Positions 44,144 through 50,848 of a stretch of DNA of 64,000 bases are shown here, piece after piece. The notes beneath the pieces are model-generated. The model saw only the letters and a program-made list of their open reading frames with translations. It made no database searches and was not told the DNA's origin. Each line of letters starts with the position of its first letter. Within the stretch, counting starts at the first letter, position 1. The translations under genes were made by a program, and so were the position numbers. The stretch is from Balneolaceae bacterium (lineage in GTDB: Bacteria > Bacteroidota > Rhodothermia > Balneolales > Balneolaceae), in NCBI GenBank assembly GCA_017640665.1, contig JAEPQE010000002.1, positions 558,001-622,000 of the forward strand, read 5' to 3'.

Positions 44144-46717
44144 ATGAAACCTATTATTACGGTTTTAAGCATTGCCTTATTAAGTTTTTTGATGATGAAC
44201 TTTGCTTGTTCTACCAACCTATACGCACAAGATGAACAAGTACTGGAAAACCCACTCCTTTTTGCACTAGTACCTCCGCCGGTGCTCTCTAATGGATCTT
44301 ATGCACACCAACTGGAAACCTTTGGTAATCATATAACCACTATGAGAGCGGCTCCCAGAGGAGGAGATCTGGCTTTGATGGATGAATATGGGATTATCCG
44401 CCTCTTAACTAAAGAAGCCGGCTTTGGACTGGCATCGGGAGAAACTCAGACAGAACTGGGAATTGCTGTCAGGCAACCTGCTATTCACTGGGATGGAACC
44501 AGGGCTCTCTTTTCAATGATTATTGGAGGTCCGATTAAAGCCTTCGATCAAAGCTACCAGAATAATAAATGGCAGATTTATGAAATCACTAATCTGGATA
44601 AAGTACTGGAGGGAGATACTGCAATTATTGAGAAAGTACCTTTCCAACCTGAATACAATAATATTTCTCCTATTTACGGATCCGATGATCAGATTATTTA
44701 TACATCTGATGCTCCACTATTCGGGATGGAGCATACCTACCCCCCACTGGATGAATACGAATCCACTCCTATTAACTCAGGAATCTGGAAGCTAAATCCG
44801 GCTACAGGTACTGTTGTTCATCTTACCCATTCTCCAAGTGGTGATTTTGACCTTTTTCTGGCAAGTGATGGGCGGGTTATCTCAACAAGATGGGAGCACC
44901 TGAAAAGAGATCAGCAAACCGATGCCACACGAGCGGGTATTTTTGATTATCAACCAGTGCAATATGAAAGTGAACGTGCAGATGCAGCACCTATCGTTGG
45001 CCCAACTATGAAAGATGGCAAACCTTATGCAGATGAGAATGGGGTCCCCTGGGAAGTATTCCCAGAAGCCAGAGTTGAAAACGACCCCACTCGTAATCCC
45101 AATGAACCGCTACATGATTTTAATGAGTTCCTTGTTTGGGAAATCACTGAAAATGGAGAGCGACATCAGACCATGAACCATGTTGGTCGCCACGAATTCG
45201 GTGGTGTTTACCAGAACCCATCAAAGCTTGATGACCCGAATTTGGTATATAATCTGGGGGACTTATCGTCTAATGCATATAGAAACACCGTAGGATCGGA
45301 TGCAGGCATTTTTCAGATTAAAGAAGACCCCCGTCCCGGAAAAGAAGGTACTTTTTATGGAACATGGGCACGGGAATTTAGCCGGTTTGCATCAGGACGT
45401 ATATTTGAGTTTTCTCTTCCTATTGGTGCAAATCCACAGGACATGGAAATTGTAGACTGGACCAATCCAATTATTGATAGTGGCCAGGAAAATGATCACG
45501 GACACTATCGAAACCCTGTAATGTCTACTAATGGAACGATGTTGGTTTCCCATACTGATCAAACCGGGTTATTTAACAGGGACAATCCCTATCACTTTCA
45601 AATTAAAAAGATGATCTCATTAGAAGTGAGTGAATCTGGAACAGAACACTCTGCCGGACCGGCTTTAACAGGTGAAGGATTAGAAAAAGAAATTGTATGG
45701 TATGGCGATTTTGTTGAGCCTTTGCGCGATACAGTAAAGCTCCATGAAGTTGATATAGTTGAAGTAGTTGAACGGGGTCGCCCTGCTGCGCGTCTCAAAT
45801 ATGAGATTGCAGATATAGAAAAGGAAATCATTGAAGAAGAAGGTGTGGATGCTACAGAACTCAGAGAATGGATGATTGATAAAAACCTTGCAATGATTGT
45901 AATCCGAAACGCCACTGAGCGGGACGCAGGCGAAAGTCAGCAGCCTTTTAACTTACAGGTGTCTGGTGGAACCTCGACCATCCCAAAAGATGGAAAGGTG
46001 TACAATATCTCTCATTTTCAGATTTTTGGAGCAGAATTACTTCGTTCTTATGGTTCTAAAAATCATAACGGCAGGCGAGTATTAGCCGCTCCTTTACGAA
46101 ATGGAGAACATCATCCTGATATTGAAGAAGTAAATATGTTTGATGAAGAAGCAGCTCCGGCTTCTATTCCAATTCGCGAAGACGGTTCTATTGCTGCATT
46201 TGTTCCTGCAACCCGTGCGCTAACATGGCAAACGCTTTCACCTGAAGGTGAAGGAATAGTTCGCGAACGCCAATGGGTTACTTTTGCACCTGGTGAAATT
46301 CGCACCTGCGAGGGATGCCATGGAATCAATAATTTAAGCCAAGCGGGGAATATTGCCCCTCAGAATAAACCTCAGGCACTACGTGATTTGCTTACAGTGT
46401 GGAAAGAAATGGAAGGTAACACTACCGGGTCTGAAGAAAATACTGATGCCCCGGGTCGCTTTGAGCTTCACCAGAATTATCCGAATCCCTTTAACCCAAC
46501 CACTCAGGTTGGCTTTGATTTACCTACATCAAGTGAAGTTGAAATCAGGATTTATGATGCTAAAGGTAGCTTGGTACAAACTCTCGCTAATGATGTATTT
46601 ACTGCAGGTACTCATTCCCTGACGTTTGATGCATCAGGTCTTGCAAGTGGTGTTTATTTATATAGCATAAAAACGAAATTTGGTATCCATTCAAAACGCA
46701 TGTTATTAGCTAAATAA
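44144..46717 (+). CDS. HzsA-related c-type haem protein with T9SS sorting domain
   Basis: 857 aa. Signal peptide (about 1-29, ending LYAQ; an internal FAC could be read as a lipobox but a T9SS tail argues for cleavage). The N-terminal half is propeller-like. The later part (VSGGTSTIPKDGKVYNISH, GRRVLAAPLRNGEHHPDIEE, SIPIREDGSIAAFVPATRAL) matches proteins annotated as related to the hydrazine synthase alpha subunit, and one haem c site CEGCH is present (Cys722, Cys725, His726). The C-terminus is a T9SS domain with YPNPFNPTTQVGF. Hydrazine synthesis is not implied: the organism type and lack of partner subunits argue against it. The redox role is unknown. Confidence 0.8.
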   Translation: MKPIITVLSIALLSFLMMNFACSTNLYAQDEQVLENPLLFALVPPPVLSNGSYAHQLETFGNHITTMRAAPRGGDLALMDEYGIIRLLTKEAGFGLASGETQTELGIAVRQPAIHWDGTRALFSMIIGGPIKAFDQSYQNNKWQIYEITNLDKVLEGDTAIIEKVPFQPEYNNISPIYGSDDQIIYTSDAPLFGMEHTYPPLDEYESTPINSGIWKLNPATGTVVHLTHSPSGDFDLFLASDGRVISTRWEHLKRDQQTDATRAGIFDYQPVQYESERADAAPIVGPTMKDGKPYADENGVPWEVFPEARVENDPTRNPNEPLHDFNEFLVWEITENGERHQTMNHVGRHEFGGVYQNPSKLDDPNLVYNLGDLSSNAYRNTVGSDAGIFQIKEDPRPGKEGTFYGTWAREFSRFASGRIFEFSLPIGANPQDMEIVDWTNPIIDSGQENDHGHYRNPVMSTNGTMLVSHTDQTGLFNRDNPYHFQIKKMISLEVSESGTEHSAGPALTGEGLEKEIVWYGDFVEPLRDTVKLHEVDIVEVVERGRPAARLKYEIADIEKEIIEEEGVDATELREWMIDKNLAMIVIRNATERDAGESQQPFNLQVSGGTSTIPKDGKVYNISHFQIFGAELLRSYGSKNHNGRRVLAAPLRNGEHHPDIEEVNMFDEEAAPASIPIREDGSIAAFVPATRALTWQTLSPEGEGIVRERQWVTFAPGEIRTCEGCHGINNLSQAGNIAPQNKPQALRDLLTVWKEMEGNTTGSEENTDAPGRFELHQNYPNPFNPTTQVGFDLPTSSEVEIRIYDAKGSLVQTLANDVFTAGTHSLTFDASGLASGVYLYSIKTKFGIHSKRMLLAK

Positions 46718-47236: not shown

Positions 47237-47293
47237 TTAATCAATCGTATAACCGCTGGTGAATCCATCGGCGGTAAACTGTATGTTCAGTCT
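47237..47293 (-). pseudogene. Remnant of the 3' end of a VWA-lipoprotein gene
   Basis: Read on the minus strand this gives RLNIQFTADGFTSGYTID followed by a stop, nearly the same as the C-terminus of the VWA protein at 49820-50848 (KFTADGFTGGCTID). At DNA level 23 bases (47258-47280 and 49841-49863) are identical. Upstream codons do not continue the match and run into a terminator hairpin, so this is a decayed or partial duplicate, not a gene. Confidence 0.75.
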
Positions 47294-47363: not shown

Positions 47364-48092
47364 TTATTTGATCTCAAGGGGCAGATATTCTTTCATTTTA
47401 GTGATGAGCTGCTCATGATCTTTAGCTACTTCCATACGCTCTTTCTCTCCAATAGGTATTACTAACAACTTGTGAGGTCCGTTTCCATTGATAAAGGGTA
47501 GTCCACTAAACATGTGATTTTTCGTCCGCGTAACAGAACTTTCAAATCCAATTTCTTCTGCTGTCAGATATGGAGCGTAGATCATGTAATGTGGAATATA
47601 AGTCATCATCTCTCCTCTCACTTCTGTATCAGGCACATATACAACCGGGGAAAGCATGTATATCAATCCTGCCTTTTCAGGAGTAGGATATTCTCCGTTT
47701 CTGAAACCATTTGCTATCCTTCTTTGAACTTCGGCTTCTTCAACCCCTTGTTTACGCATATTCTGCGAATCGATATGAACTTTACCAATCGTTTTGGCTC
47801 CTATTTCATCGTAACAAATAGGTGCTACTATATCAGGGAAACGGGCATTTCCACGAACAACCAGGCAAAGAAATCCATTTGTCCCTTCTTTTGCTGTTTT
47901 ATATCCTGTTTCAGTCAGTACTAGTACCGTTGCTGCTTCACGAATTGCCTTTGGACCGGCACTTAAAGCCAATTCAATTTCAAGGTCTTCCGGTAAATAT
48001 GCAGGGAGTGATGCATCGTTTGCTGTTGCATACTCACTATTTAGCATTAGAGCTAAAAGTAAAATTAAGCTTACAGAAATAATTTTTTTCAT
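47364..48092 (-). CDS. Secreted protein of unknown function, probable LytTR target
   Basis: 242 aa. Signal peptide MKKIISVSLILLLALMLNS with cleavage near residue 24 (ATA-ND). I do not recognise a family; the mature part contains ALSAGPKAIREAATVLVL and GTNGFLCLVVRGN, suggesting a compact alpha/beta domain, and ends in an amphipathic charged helix. No catalytic motif is evident. Its upstream region carries a paired direct repeat (48189-48218) with the geometry of a LytTR-binding site, and the LytTR regulator gene lies next to it, so regulated expression is likely. Confidence 0.8.
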   Translation of the reverse strand: MKKIISVSLILLLALMLNSEYATANDASLPAYLPEDLEIELALSAGPKAIREAATVLVLTETGYKTAKEGTNGFLCLVVRGNARFPDIVAPICYDEIGAKTIGKVHIDSQNMRKQGVEEAEVQRRIANGFRNGEYPTPEKAGLIYMLSPVVYVPDTEVRGEMMTYIPHYMIYAPYLTAEEIGFESSVTRTKNHMFSGLPFINGNGPHKLLVIPIGEKERMEVAKDHEQLITKMKEYLPLEIK

Positions 48093-48188: not shown

Positions 48189-48218
48189 CTGAATGGTCAT
48201 ATTTGAAAAACGAATGGG
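48189..48218 (-). promoter_or_regulatory. LytTR-type paired direct repeat upstream of the 242-aa gene
   Basis: On the minus strand CCCATTCGT and ACCATTCAG are separated by exactly 12 bp (start-to-start 21 bp, two helical turns). They agree at CCATTC. The site ends 96 bp before the ATG at 48092. The same motif, spacing, orientation and distance occur upstream of the dinB-like gene. Confidence 0.7.
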
Positions 48219-48234: not shown

Positions 48235-49056
48235 CTAAATTCCGCTAAGCCAGTTTTTTAATTCTTTACTCTTATATCTGCTCACAATTATTTCTTTATC
48301 ATGGCTATCCGAACCTACTAAGACTTTTAGCTTTCGGTTAAAATCTTTCTGGATATTCCGAATTGAGTCGCGGTGAATAATATATTGACGGTTGGCCCGG
48401 TAGAATAATTTATTAGGCAACCTTCTTTCTAATTCTTCCAGAGTATCGAACTGAGTATTAATTACCTTTTCATTTTTTAAATGGAAAACTACAATTCCAT
48501 GCTTTAACTCAACAAAAGCTATTTCTTTAATTTCTATCTGATAAGACTTGGAACCCGTTGGTACCAAAATCGTTTTCTTTTCAACTTTATCAATTTCCTC
48601 ATTTAGCCGGGCGTTGCTGATTAAAGTTCCATAAACAAGGAAGAGTAAGTTCTCGATTATAATCACACATAACGTGATAAAAAGGTACAGAAAATAGAAA
48701 GATATAGGGATAGGGAAGCCAACAATCAGAATAGAAAGAACAGTAAAGACAACAATTGCTACCAGGCTATTGTAGAATAGGAAACCTAGCACCCCTCTGA
48801 AATCAATCACTGAATTGATAAACAAACGTTCTTTAAAGTAATTTGAAAAAATCCAAGAACTTGTACAGACAATTAAGCCAAACACAAGACCGAAGAACAC
48901 AGATCGAACCGGGAAAGAATAGTCAGGGTTAAACGGCAACATCCCTATTCTAATGTGAGCATTAGCAAGTGCAAGTGCAGTTATAACTCCATATCTGAAA
49001 ACGGCAGTTTTCAATGAGTAGTTGAATATGCTCAGGTCAATGATTCGGTTATTCAT
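48235..49056 (-). CDS. Membrane-bound LytTR-domain transcriptional regulator
   Basis: 273 aa. Four hydrophobic segments occupy about residues 15-145 (for example FFGLVFGLIVCTSSWIF and YFLYLFITLCVIIIENLLFL). The LytTR DNA-binding domain follows from about 168: VPTGSKSYQIEIKEIAFVEL and FYRANRQYIIHRDSIRNI are its signature stretches. There is no receiver domain and no neighbouring histidine kinase, so this is a one-component, membrane-anchored regulator that could sense a signal through its membrane part. It stands between its two probable targets, the 242-aa gene and the divergent dinB-like gene. Confidence 0.92.
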   Translation of the reverse strand: MNNRIIDLSIFNYSLKTAVFRYGVITALALANAHIRIGMLPFNPDYSFPVRSVFFGLVFGLIVCTSSWIFSNYFKERLFINSVIDFRGVLGFLFYNSLVAIVVFTVLSILIVGFPIPISFYFLYLFITLCVIIIENLLFLVYGTLISNARLNEEIDKVEKKTILVPTGSKSYQIEIKEIAFVELKHGIVVFHLKNEKVINTQFDTLEELERRLPNKLFYRANRQYIIHRDSIRNIQKDFNRKLKVLVGSDSHDKEIIVSRYKSKELKNWLSGI

Positions 49057-49089: not shown

Positions 49090-49119
49090 ACCATTCGGTA
49101 AATCCTACAGACCATTCGG
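49090..49119 (+). promoter_or_regulatory. LytTR-type paired direct repeat upstream of the DinB-like gene
   Basis: ACCATTCGG occurs twice, at 49090-49098 and 49111-49119, with exactly 12 bp between. This 9-12-9 layout is that of sites for ComE, BlpR, AgrA and other LytTR proteins. It ends 101 bp before the ATG at 49221 and starts 33 bp upstream of the regulator's own ATG, so it could activate dinB and also affect regulator expression. Confidence 0.75.
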
Positions 49120-49220: not shown

Positions 49221-49808
49221 ATGAAAAAAATAAACCTGCTTCTTGTACTTATTTTGAGCTCAAATTTTGTAAATGCTCAAACCGGAACACTTACTAACTA
49301 CGAACGTCAATTCCTGCTCGATAACTGGGAAGTAACCAAGACTGAACTACTTTCTGAAGTTAAAAAAGTACCTGATAACCAATGGACCAAACGACCTGCT
49401 GATGGAGGATGGTCTGTAGCGGAATGTTTCGAACATATCGTTATTGCTATGCCCGCGCAAATGGGAGGAGTGCAAAACTCCTTAAACAAGGCTGCGAACT
49501 CCAGTAAAGACATGACACATCTTGATGGTTATCTCCTCTCCCGAATGACCAACAGAGGTACAGCTTTCCCAACACCTCTCCCTCCACGTGAAAGAGATAT
49601 TTCGAAAGAAGATTTACTAGAGAGATTTCAGGAGCTCGATAAGCAATTTATTGCAATGATCAATAACCGGAATGCTCCATACAGAAATCACTACGGTCCC
49701 TCTCCCTTTGGCGAAGCTGATGCATATCAATTATTGCTACTTACCTCTGGTCATGTATTACGCCATACCTTTCAAATTAGGGAAGTGTTGAGAGAAATTA
49801 ACAGTTGA
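49221..49808 (+). CDS. Exported DinB/YfiT-family protein
   Basis: 195 aa. Signal peptide MKKINLLLVLILSSNFVNAQ. The mature protein is a four-helix DinB fold with the usual metal-binding histidines: His72 in WSVAECFEHIVIA and the HxxxH pair in LTSGHVLRHTFQI near the C-terminus. Cytoplasmic relatives include thiol S-transferases; export makes that cofactor use uncertain. It has a LytTR-type site upstream and is divergent from the LytTR regulator. It converges on the VWA gene with 11 bp between the two stop codons. Confidence 0.88.
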   Translation: MKKINLLLVLILSSNFVNAQTGTLTNYERQFLLDNWEVTKTELLSEVKKVPDNQWTKRPADGGWSVAECFEHIVIAMPAQMGGVQNSLNKAANSSKDMTHLDGYLLSRMTNRGTAFPTPLPPRERDISKEDLLERFQELDKQFIAMINNRNAPYRNHYGPSPFGEADAYQLLLLTSGHVLRHTFQIREVLREINS

Positions 49809-49819
49809 TGAACTACATT

Positions 49820-50848
49820 CTAATCGATGGTACAACCGCCGGTGAATCCATCGGCGGTAAACTTCGTTTTAAAGCTCCCGAATTGTTTTTCGTAATTCGC
49901 CCGTAGCTCAATAGTATGTTCACCTGAACGTTTTGGGGTACAATATTCCAGCACGTAAAATGATTTAGATTCGCTTTCTACTTTTTGGGCTACATCCAGA
50001 AAAACAGAATTCAGATCGAATGAATTTTCTGCAAGTTCAAAACCATCACGCCCAAAACTTTTCAAGATATCTTCATCGATTTCATCCCCAAGTCCAATGG
50101 TGAATACTGCGTTATCCTGTCCTGCATTCCGAACAGCATTTTGTGCTTCCCGGGTTGAAACCCTGCTAGCCTGATCGGTTCCGTCCGTAAAAATAACCAG
50201 AGATCCTGCTGCTGATAGATTTGGATTTAACCGCGCTTCGGTGAGCTTGGAGTTCATAATAGACAAACCCTGTACAACCGCACCATTCAAGTTTGTAGAG
50301 TTATCACTACTAATGTCTTCGTTAATGGAATCAATACTAGTAGCCAGAGAATCACGGTCGGCTGTGAAACCGATAAGCTGATGTACATCCTGCTCACCAT
50401 CAAACCAATAAATAGCCATTTCTTTTGAGCCATATAGCTCATTGCCTTCGTTAGGCATTACAGAGGAAATAAAAGAGTGTGCAGCACTTTTTACGTTTGG
50501 AAGCTCACTATCGTTTAATACGCTCCCGCTAAGGTCGAGCAGCAAAATGGAAGCAAAAAGAAACTCACCTTCTTCTCTTTGAATCTGGGCCTGAGACTCA
50601 AGCCTGGAGATTAACGAACCATCTTCGTAAATGTCAAAATCTACTGGTTCGAGGGTTTCGAAAAGCTTATCCTCACCAAGATCAACTTTAAAGAACAATC
50701 GTACTTTAGCAGGCATCTCTGCCTTGGCTTCAATAAGATCCATATCAAATCGTTTTGTTTCATCGTCTTTGCCACATGATGTAAGCAAGAACAACGAGCA
50801 AATACTTAGTAAAAGAACCTTCGGAAATGTAGAATTTGAAAATCGCAT
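49820..50848 (-). CDS. VWA-domain lipoprotein
   Basis: 342 aa. Lipoprotein signal SLFLLTSC with Cys25. The von Willebrand A domain spans about 97-290 with a complete MIDAS: Asp105-x-Ser107-x-Ser109 in LLLDLSGSVLND, and FTDGTDQASR supplying the later Thr/Asp ligand. Cysteines near the C-terminus (LEYCTPKR, GGCTID) probably pair. Likely a metal-dependent adhesion or binding protein on the cell envelope. A 3'-end fragment of a close relative remains at 47237-47293. Confidence 0.88.
   Translation of the reverse strand: MRFSNSTFPKVLLLSICSLFLLTSCGKDDETKRFDMDLIEAKAEMPAKVRLFFKVDLGEDKLFETLEPVDFDIYEDGSLISRLESQAQIQREEGEFLFASILLLDLSGSVLNDSELPNVKSAAHSFISSVMPNEGNELYGSKEMAIYWFDGEQDVHQLIGFTADRDSLATSIDSINEDISSDNSTNLNGAVVQGLSIMNSKLTEARLNPNLSAAGSLVIFTDGTDQASRVSTREAQNAVRNAGQDNAVFTIGLGDEIDEDILKSFGRDGFELAENSFDLNSVFLDVAQKVESESKSFYVLEYCTPKRSGEHTIELRANYEKQFGSFKTKFTADGFTGGCTID

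Follow-up and report, generated by a model that had tools for sequence, protein, structure and literature searches.

Direct repeats on both sides of a membrane-anchored LytTR gene in a Balneolaceae bacterium: predicted operators with counterparts beside related regulators in two other families

The locus described here raises the question of why two direct repeats of equal geometry flank a single gene for a membrane-anchored LytTR protein, and whether they are the sites through which that protein controls its two neighbors. In this study, we analysed a stretch of 64,000 nucleotides from a Balneolaceae bacterium (the window; positions 558,001 to 622,000 of contig JAEPQE010000002.1, assembly GCA_017640665.1). 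We consider it highly probable from sequence comparison (a probability of roughly 0.87) that the repeats are operators of the adjacent membrane-anchored LytTR one-component regulator, which probably activates the gene of a 242-aa protein on one side and a gene of the DinB_2 superfamily on the other.

Two repeat sites and the genes around them

Site 2 (48189..48218, minus strand) is a direct repeat of the form CCCATTCGT-N12-ACCATTCAG facing the 242-aa gene, and its upstream half-site CCCATTCGT (48210..48218) and downstream half-site ACCATTCAG (48189..48197) were both read on the minus strand of the window sequence. A gap of 96 bp separates it from the start codon of the 242-aa ORF (48092). Site 1 (49090..49119, plus strand), a repeat of the form ACCATTCGG-N12-ACCATTCGG, faces the DinB_2 gene and ends 101 bp before the ATG of that ORF (49221). 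The two sites flank the 273-aa LytTR gene (48235..49056, minus strand). With regard to autoactivation of the LRS type, site 1 precedes the start codon of the divergent lytTR gene by 33 bp but is oriented toward the DinB_2 gene. An earlier note on this DNA had reported the sequence, coordinates, strand and 96-bp distance of site 2, as well as a twin of the same geometry 101 bp before its neighbor, and all of these were reproduced. Its argument that two sites of equal geometry are unlikely to arise by chance also held, as the window contains two pairs of the form CCATTC-N15-CCATTC where shuffles predict 0.02, and none of 100 dinucleotide shuffles of the window contained two such pairs. Canonical LytTR sites consist of paired 9-bp repeats 10 to 13 bp apart (PMC11347149), and both window sites are built in this manner, with 12 bp between the repeats.

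The regulator has a hydrophobic N-terminal domain and a C-terminal LytTR domain (residues 170-270) which matches PF04397 with 63.7 bits against a cut-off of 22.6 (E 2e-17). Its N-terminal residues, about 150 in number, are mostly hydrophobic, with hydrophobic stretches within residues 24-149, and a structure model of low confidence (pLDDT 46) places four long helices ahead of the strands of the DNA-binding domain, the helix count being uncertain. LytTR was the sole domain found in the Pfam scan of the regulator, which gave no receiver domain and no match to MHYT. A histidine and a Y-x-F-P motif of the membrane part are invariant in an alignment of 11 proteins, which is consistent with one homologous membrane domain shared by these sequences. 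Since transmembrane segments and a DNA-binding domain are present in one chain, the protein can be counted among the transmembrane one-component regulators (TTRs). It does not fall into the LRS type, which comprises a soluble LytTR regulator and a separate membrane inhibitor, because the regulator itself carries the membrane segments; moreover, no separate membrane inhibitor gene was seen at the locus, where the neighbors are the DinB_2 and 242-aa proteins.

The predicted target of site 1 (49221..49808, plus strand) encodes a 195-aa protein that matches PF12867 with 51.9 bits. The name dinB given to this gene in the earlier note had to be corrected, as the product is a DinB_2-superfamily protein and not DNA polymerase IV. 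The predicted target of site 2 (47364..48092, minus strand) encodes the 242-aa protein, for which no Pfam or NCBIfam family was found. Both products have N-termini that resemble signal peptides by eye, and it is possible that both are exported effectors. A search of solved structures by sequence gave no usable match for the regulator, the DinB_2 protein or the 242-aa protein, and no function could be taken from structure for the 242-aa protein, as its model is of low quality (pLDDT 39). Scattered homologs (L109-L117) place this protein in an unnamed family, and several of them have signal-peptide-like N-termini. This family was considered as a conserved partner of the regulator and rejected, its distant homologs having neither a LytTR neighbor nor a site.

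Occurrence of the repeat in its own genome and in a sister genome

When the whole genome (3.80 Mb in nine contigs) was scanned for CCATTC-N15-CCATTC, exact matches were not found at random positions without enrichment upstream of genes. There are five of them: two are sites 1 and 2, two further ones sit within ORFs of 710 and 275 aa, and the fifth is at the 5' edge of a DUF72 gene. Sites 1 and 2 alone are both conserved and outside long ORFs. The DUF72 match (L001) was considered as a third regulon member and rejected, since the orthologous positions in two genomes of the same genus (G040 and G039) are without the repeat. Near matches elsewhere in the genome (L004, L005, L183 and L189) were also rejected because they lie within ORFs by their coordinates; two of these, L183 and L189, are the extra matches obtained at up to two mismatches.

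The sister genome, Balneolaceae bacterium ih13 (G040; CP051242.1), was matched at the locus and has the same gene order. It was the only genome recovered when contigs were searched with the regulator as query, and no full-length match to the regulator was found in G039, a genome of the same genus. The regulator is 69% identical between the window and the sister, and the DinB_2 and 242-aa proteins are each 73% identical. The sister sites read ACCATTCAG-N12-ACCATCCAT and TCCATTCAA-N12-ACCATTCAG with the 21-bp period of the window, and both have been retained while the spacers have diverged. At up to two mismatches, these two sites are the only matches in the sister genome. Together with the roughly one match in each of 26 genomes of a second family (see below), this supports the suggestion of the earlier note that the regulator and its sites form a self-contained regulon.

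The same site beside related regulators in two other families

Relatives of the transmembrane LytTR protein, about 20-32% identical to it, were found in two other families (here f28 and f46); in f28, full-length ones were recovered with a profile of two regulators, those of the window and the sister. Their loci were scored with a matrix made from eight Balneolaceae half-sites and nothing else. In the first four f28 loci, the top match lay between the regulator and the next gene, and when the sample was enlarged to 27 TM-LytTR loci (L119-L145), it lay at the regulator gene in every one of them, with a period of 22 (N13) and half-sites of the type ACYATTCAG / ACCATTCAG. In 26 of the 27 loci the site follows the regulator stop and precedes a gene whose product has a protease-family-like N-terminus; in these protease-linked loci, the top-scoring site is downstream of the regulator gene, and all four of the proteins that were run against Pfam matched PF02517 (CAAX-type protease). 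At L145, the regulator gene and a DinB_2 gene diverge, and the site is in the gap between them, ahead of the DinB_2 gene, whose product is 31% identical to that of the window. The end of the site is 73-76 bp from the target ATG in all 27 loci, whereas the distance from the regulator stop to the site varies from 2 to 22 bp, which ties the site to the promoter of the target. A comparison of 9-mers that did not use the matrix, in f28 regions aligned at the site, gave as its best repeat one of period 22 at this same site (0.88 identity).

In f46, the matrix top match was at the regulator in 23 of 23 loci, again with a period of 22 (N13) and of the type ACCATTCAT / ACCATTCRT. The scores range from 17.5 to 28.1 bits (at least 18 in 19 of the 23), the gene facing the site mostly encodes a member of a membrane-protein family, and in 22 loci the site is 71-93 bp before the next gene. 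The information content of the f46 half-sites is 1.69 bits per column and that of their spacer 0.63; overall, half-sites have 1.69-1.75 bits per column, compared with 0.63-1.12 in spacers. In 19 of the 23 f46 loci (L247-L269), the site starts at the last base of the regulator stop codon, a one-base overlap.

Control loci behaved differently from these. None of 69 other LytTR loci, taken from the genome of the window (19), from other Balneolaceae and from other families of the phylum, reached 18 bits (best 17.8), compared with 26 of 27 f28 loci, and 16 bits were reached by 5 of 270 Markov-resampled loci. At up to two mismatches, the motif occurs about once per genome in the 26 f28 genomes (24 of 26 have a match), nearly always at the regulator, while a reversed control pattern gave two matches. 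The matrix scan found no strong site at the remoter TM-LytTR relatives L216 and L147. L147 and L242 (G639) are two TM-LytTR genes arranged in tandem, and the upstream gap contains no more than a weak repeat of 14.9 bits. The regulator tree groups the CAAX-protease-linked regulators in a supported clade (100/99), and the pair of the window joins the DinB-linked L145 only weakly (85/54, with a long-branch warning). The f28 loci are not independent events, given their shared ancestry and partly conserved spacers.

Proposed mechanism, alternatives and relation to known systems

The reading of the repeats as LytTR operators, put forward in the earlier note, is strongly supported by footprinting within the genus and by two other families, in which motif, spacing class, orientation and placement beside homologous regulators recur. 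The geometry fits that of a canonical LytTR site, and the simplest reading is that the membrane protein binds both neighboring operators and activates both genes. In this proposal, the regulator would have a LytTR DNA-binding domain joined in one chain to about four transmembrane helices, and two LytTR domains would bind two half-sites of the type ACCATTCRG which, being 21 bp or about two helical turns apart, would be exposed on the same side of the double helix. Once bound, the regulator would stand ahead of the promoters of both targets, the 242-aa gene at site 2 and the DinB_2 gene at site 1, and it would most likely recruit RNA polymerase when its membrane domain, presumably the part that senses a signal, is active. 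Site 1 may in addition adjust transcription of the regulator itself from its position before the lytTR start codon.

Activation is in accordance with the fact that most LytTR regulators bind upstream of the -35 element and activate (PMC11347149; compare PMC6193735). It is a probable rather than an established reading, because the candidate promoter elements near the window sites, including TAGGTATTG about 30 bp past site 2, were picked out by eye and are spaced differently from those in the f28 loci. The repeats could instead be operators of this same regulator acting as a repressor, the bound membrane protein keeping the target promoters inaccessible until a signal releases it. CoxC, a membrane LytTR one-component regulator, does repress from an operator overlapping the -35 element (PMC11347149), and site 1 is close enough to the lytTR ATG that it could block the promoter of the regulator. 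However, the repeats lie 73-101 bp before the target ATGs, which leaves room for a promoter downstream of them, and the repeats of LytTR activators are likewise found just upstream of the -35 element (PMC6193735). We therefore regard repression as unlikely, if still worth weighing. It is considerably less probable that the operators are bound by a different LytTR protein of the genome. There are 22 LytTR domains above the Pfam cut-off in the genome of the window (G000), but the motif stands at the gene of this one subfamily across three families, and a comparable site was seen at none of the 69 other LytTR loci, 19 of which are from that very genome. Chance, or a conserved element with another role such as an mRNA structure or processing site, is hardly credible: about 60 one-mismatch versions are dispersed in the genome, but 0.02 pairs were expected in the window, the sister retains both sites, the 9-mer pair recurs at homologous regulators only about 25% identical in protein, and orientation and target distance are fixed.

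Like the canonical LytTR operators of AgrA, YpdB and AlgR, the sites are direct repeats with half-sites of 9-10 bp separated by about two helical turns. Their core, CCATTC, is similar to CCGTTCGTC of AlgR (PMC4064291) and, loosely, to GGCATTTCAT of YpdB (PMC4847170). AgrA, YpdB and AlgR are soluble response regulators, whereas the present protein combines a membrane domain and a DNA-binding domain. Unlike in those systems, the predicted operator here adjoins the regulator gene, and AlgR sites are often unpaired where these are paired. CoxC (MHYT-LytTR) is also a one-component protein with an N-terminal membrane and a C-terminal LytTR domain, and has a direct-repeat operator at intervals of about two turns (PMC11347149). 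It differs in its seven-helix MHYT domain, compared with about four predicted helices here, and in repressing from three repeats TTNNNGCN over the -35 element (PMC11347149), compared with two ACCATTCRG repeats. The LRS and the Bacteroides LRS-like operons are local LytTR circuits as well, whose direct repeats, 11-13 bp apart, immediately precede the promoter, and the Bacteroides regulators also have transmembrane segments (PMC6193735). However, an LRS includes a distinct membrane inhibitor besides its regulator and is autoregulating, and the Bacteroides repeats are of the TCCGGTATTCA type with N11, whereas the operator predicted here faces a neighboring target gene. Tethering of a DNA-binding domain to the membrane is shared with the TTRs, which are enriched in Bacteroidota (PMC10269533); the parts of that account consulted describe neither the present family nor its operator or targets.

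Neither membrane LytTR proteins nor LytTR direct repeats are new in themselves. In the literature searched, we found no description of the present family, in which an unchanging operator adjoins the regulator and target genes vary by lineage. We think it reasonably probable that these proteins are an undescribed membrane LytTR family whose regulators and operators move together, as a portable switch. In this reading, the operator would stay constant in its place next to the regulator gene (at its stop codon or between divergent genes), and the gene under control would have been exchanged across three bacterial families: a CAAX-type protease, a membrane protein, an exported-looking DinB-like protein or the exported-looking 242-aa protein. 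This would suggest that a membrane-tethered regulator can retain its DNA site while the target gene changes. It would also provide a ready assignment of regulator, operator and target for a membrane transcription factor family in dozens of the genomes sampled, and link proteins of unknown role (the exported-looking DinB-like protein, the 242-aa orphan and the CAAX-type protease) to one kind of membrane regulator. Since the operator is nearly unique per genome and adjoins its target, one reporter could test both output and signal.

Two observations concern the surroundings of the locus. A 43-bp stretch is present at 47238-47280 and at 49821-49863 of the window (39 of 43 positions identical); one copy is the 3' end of a VWA-domain gene (49820-50848, minus strand), and the other, between the GNAT and 242-aa genes, looks like the remnant of a duplicated end of that gene. 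At 44144-46717, the window encodes an 857-aa protein with a match to the hydrazine-synthase-alpha middle domain (PF18582) and a Por secretion tail (PF18962).
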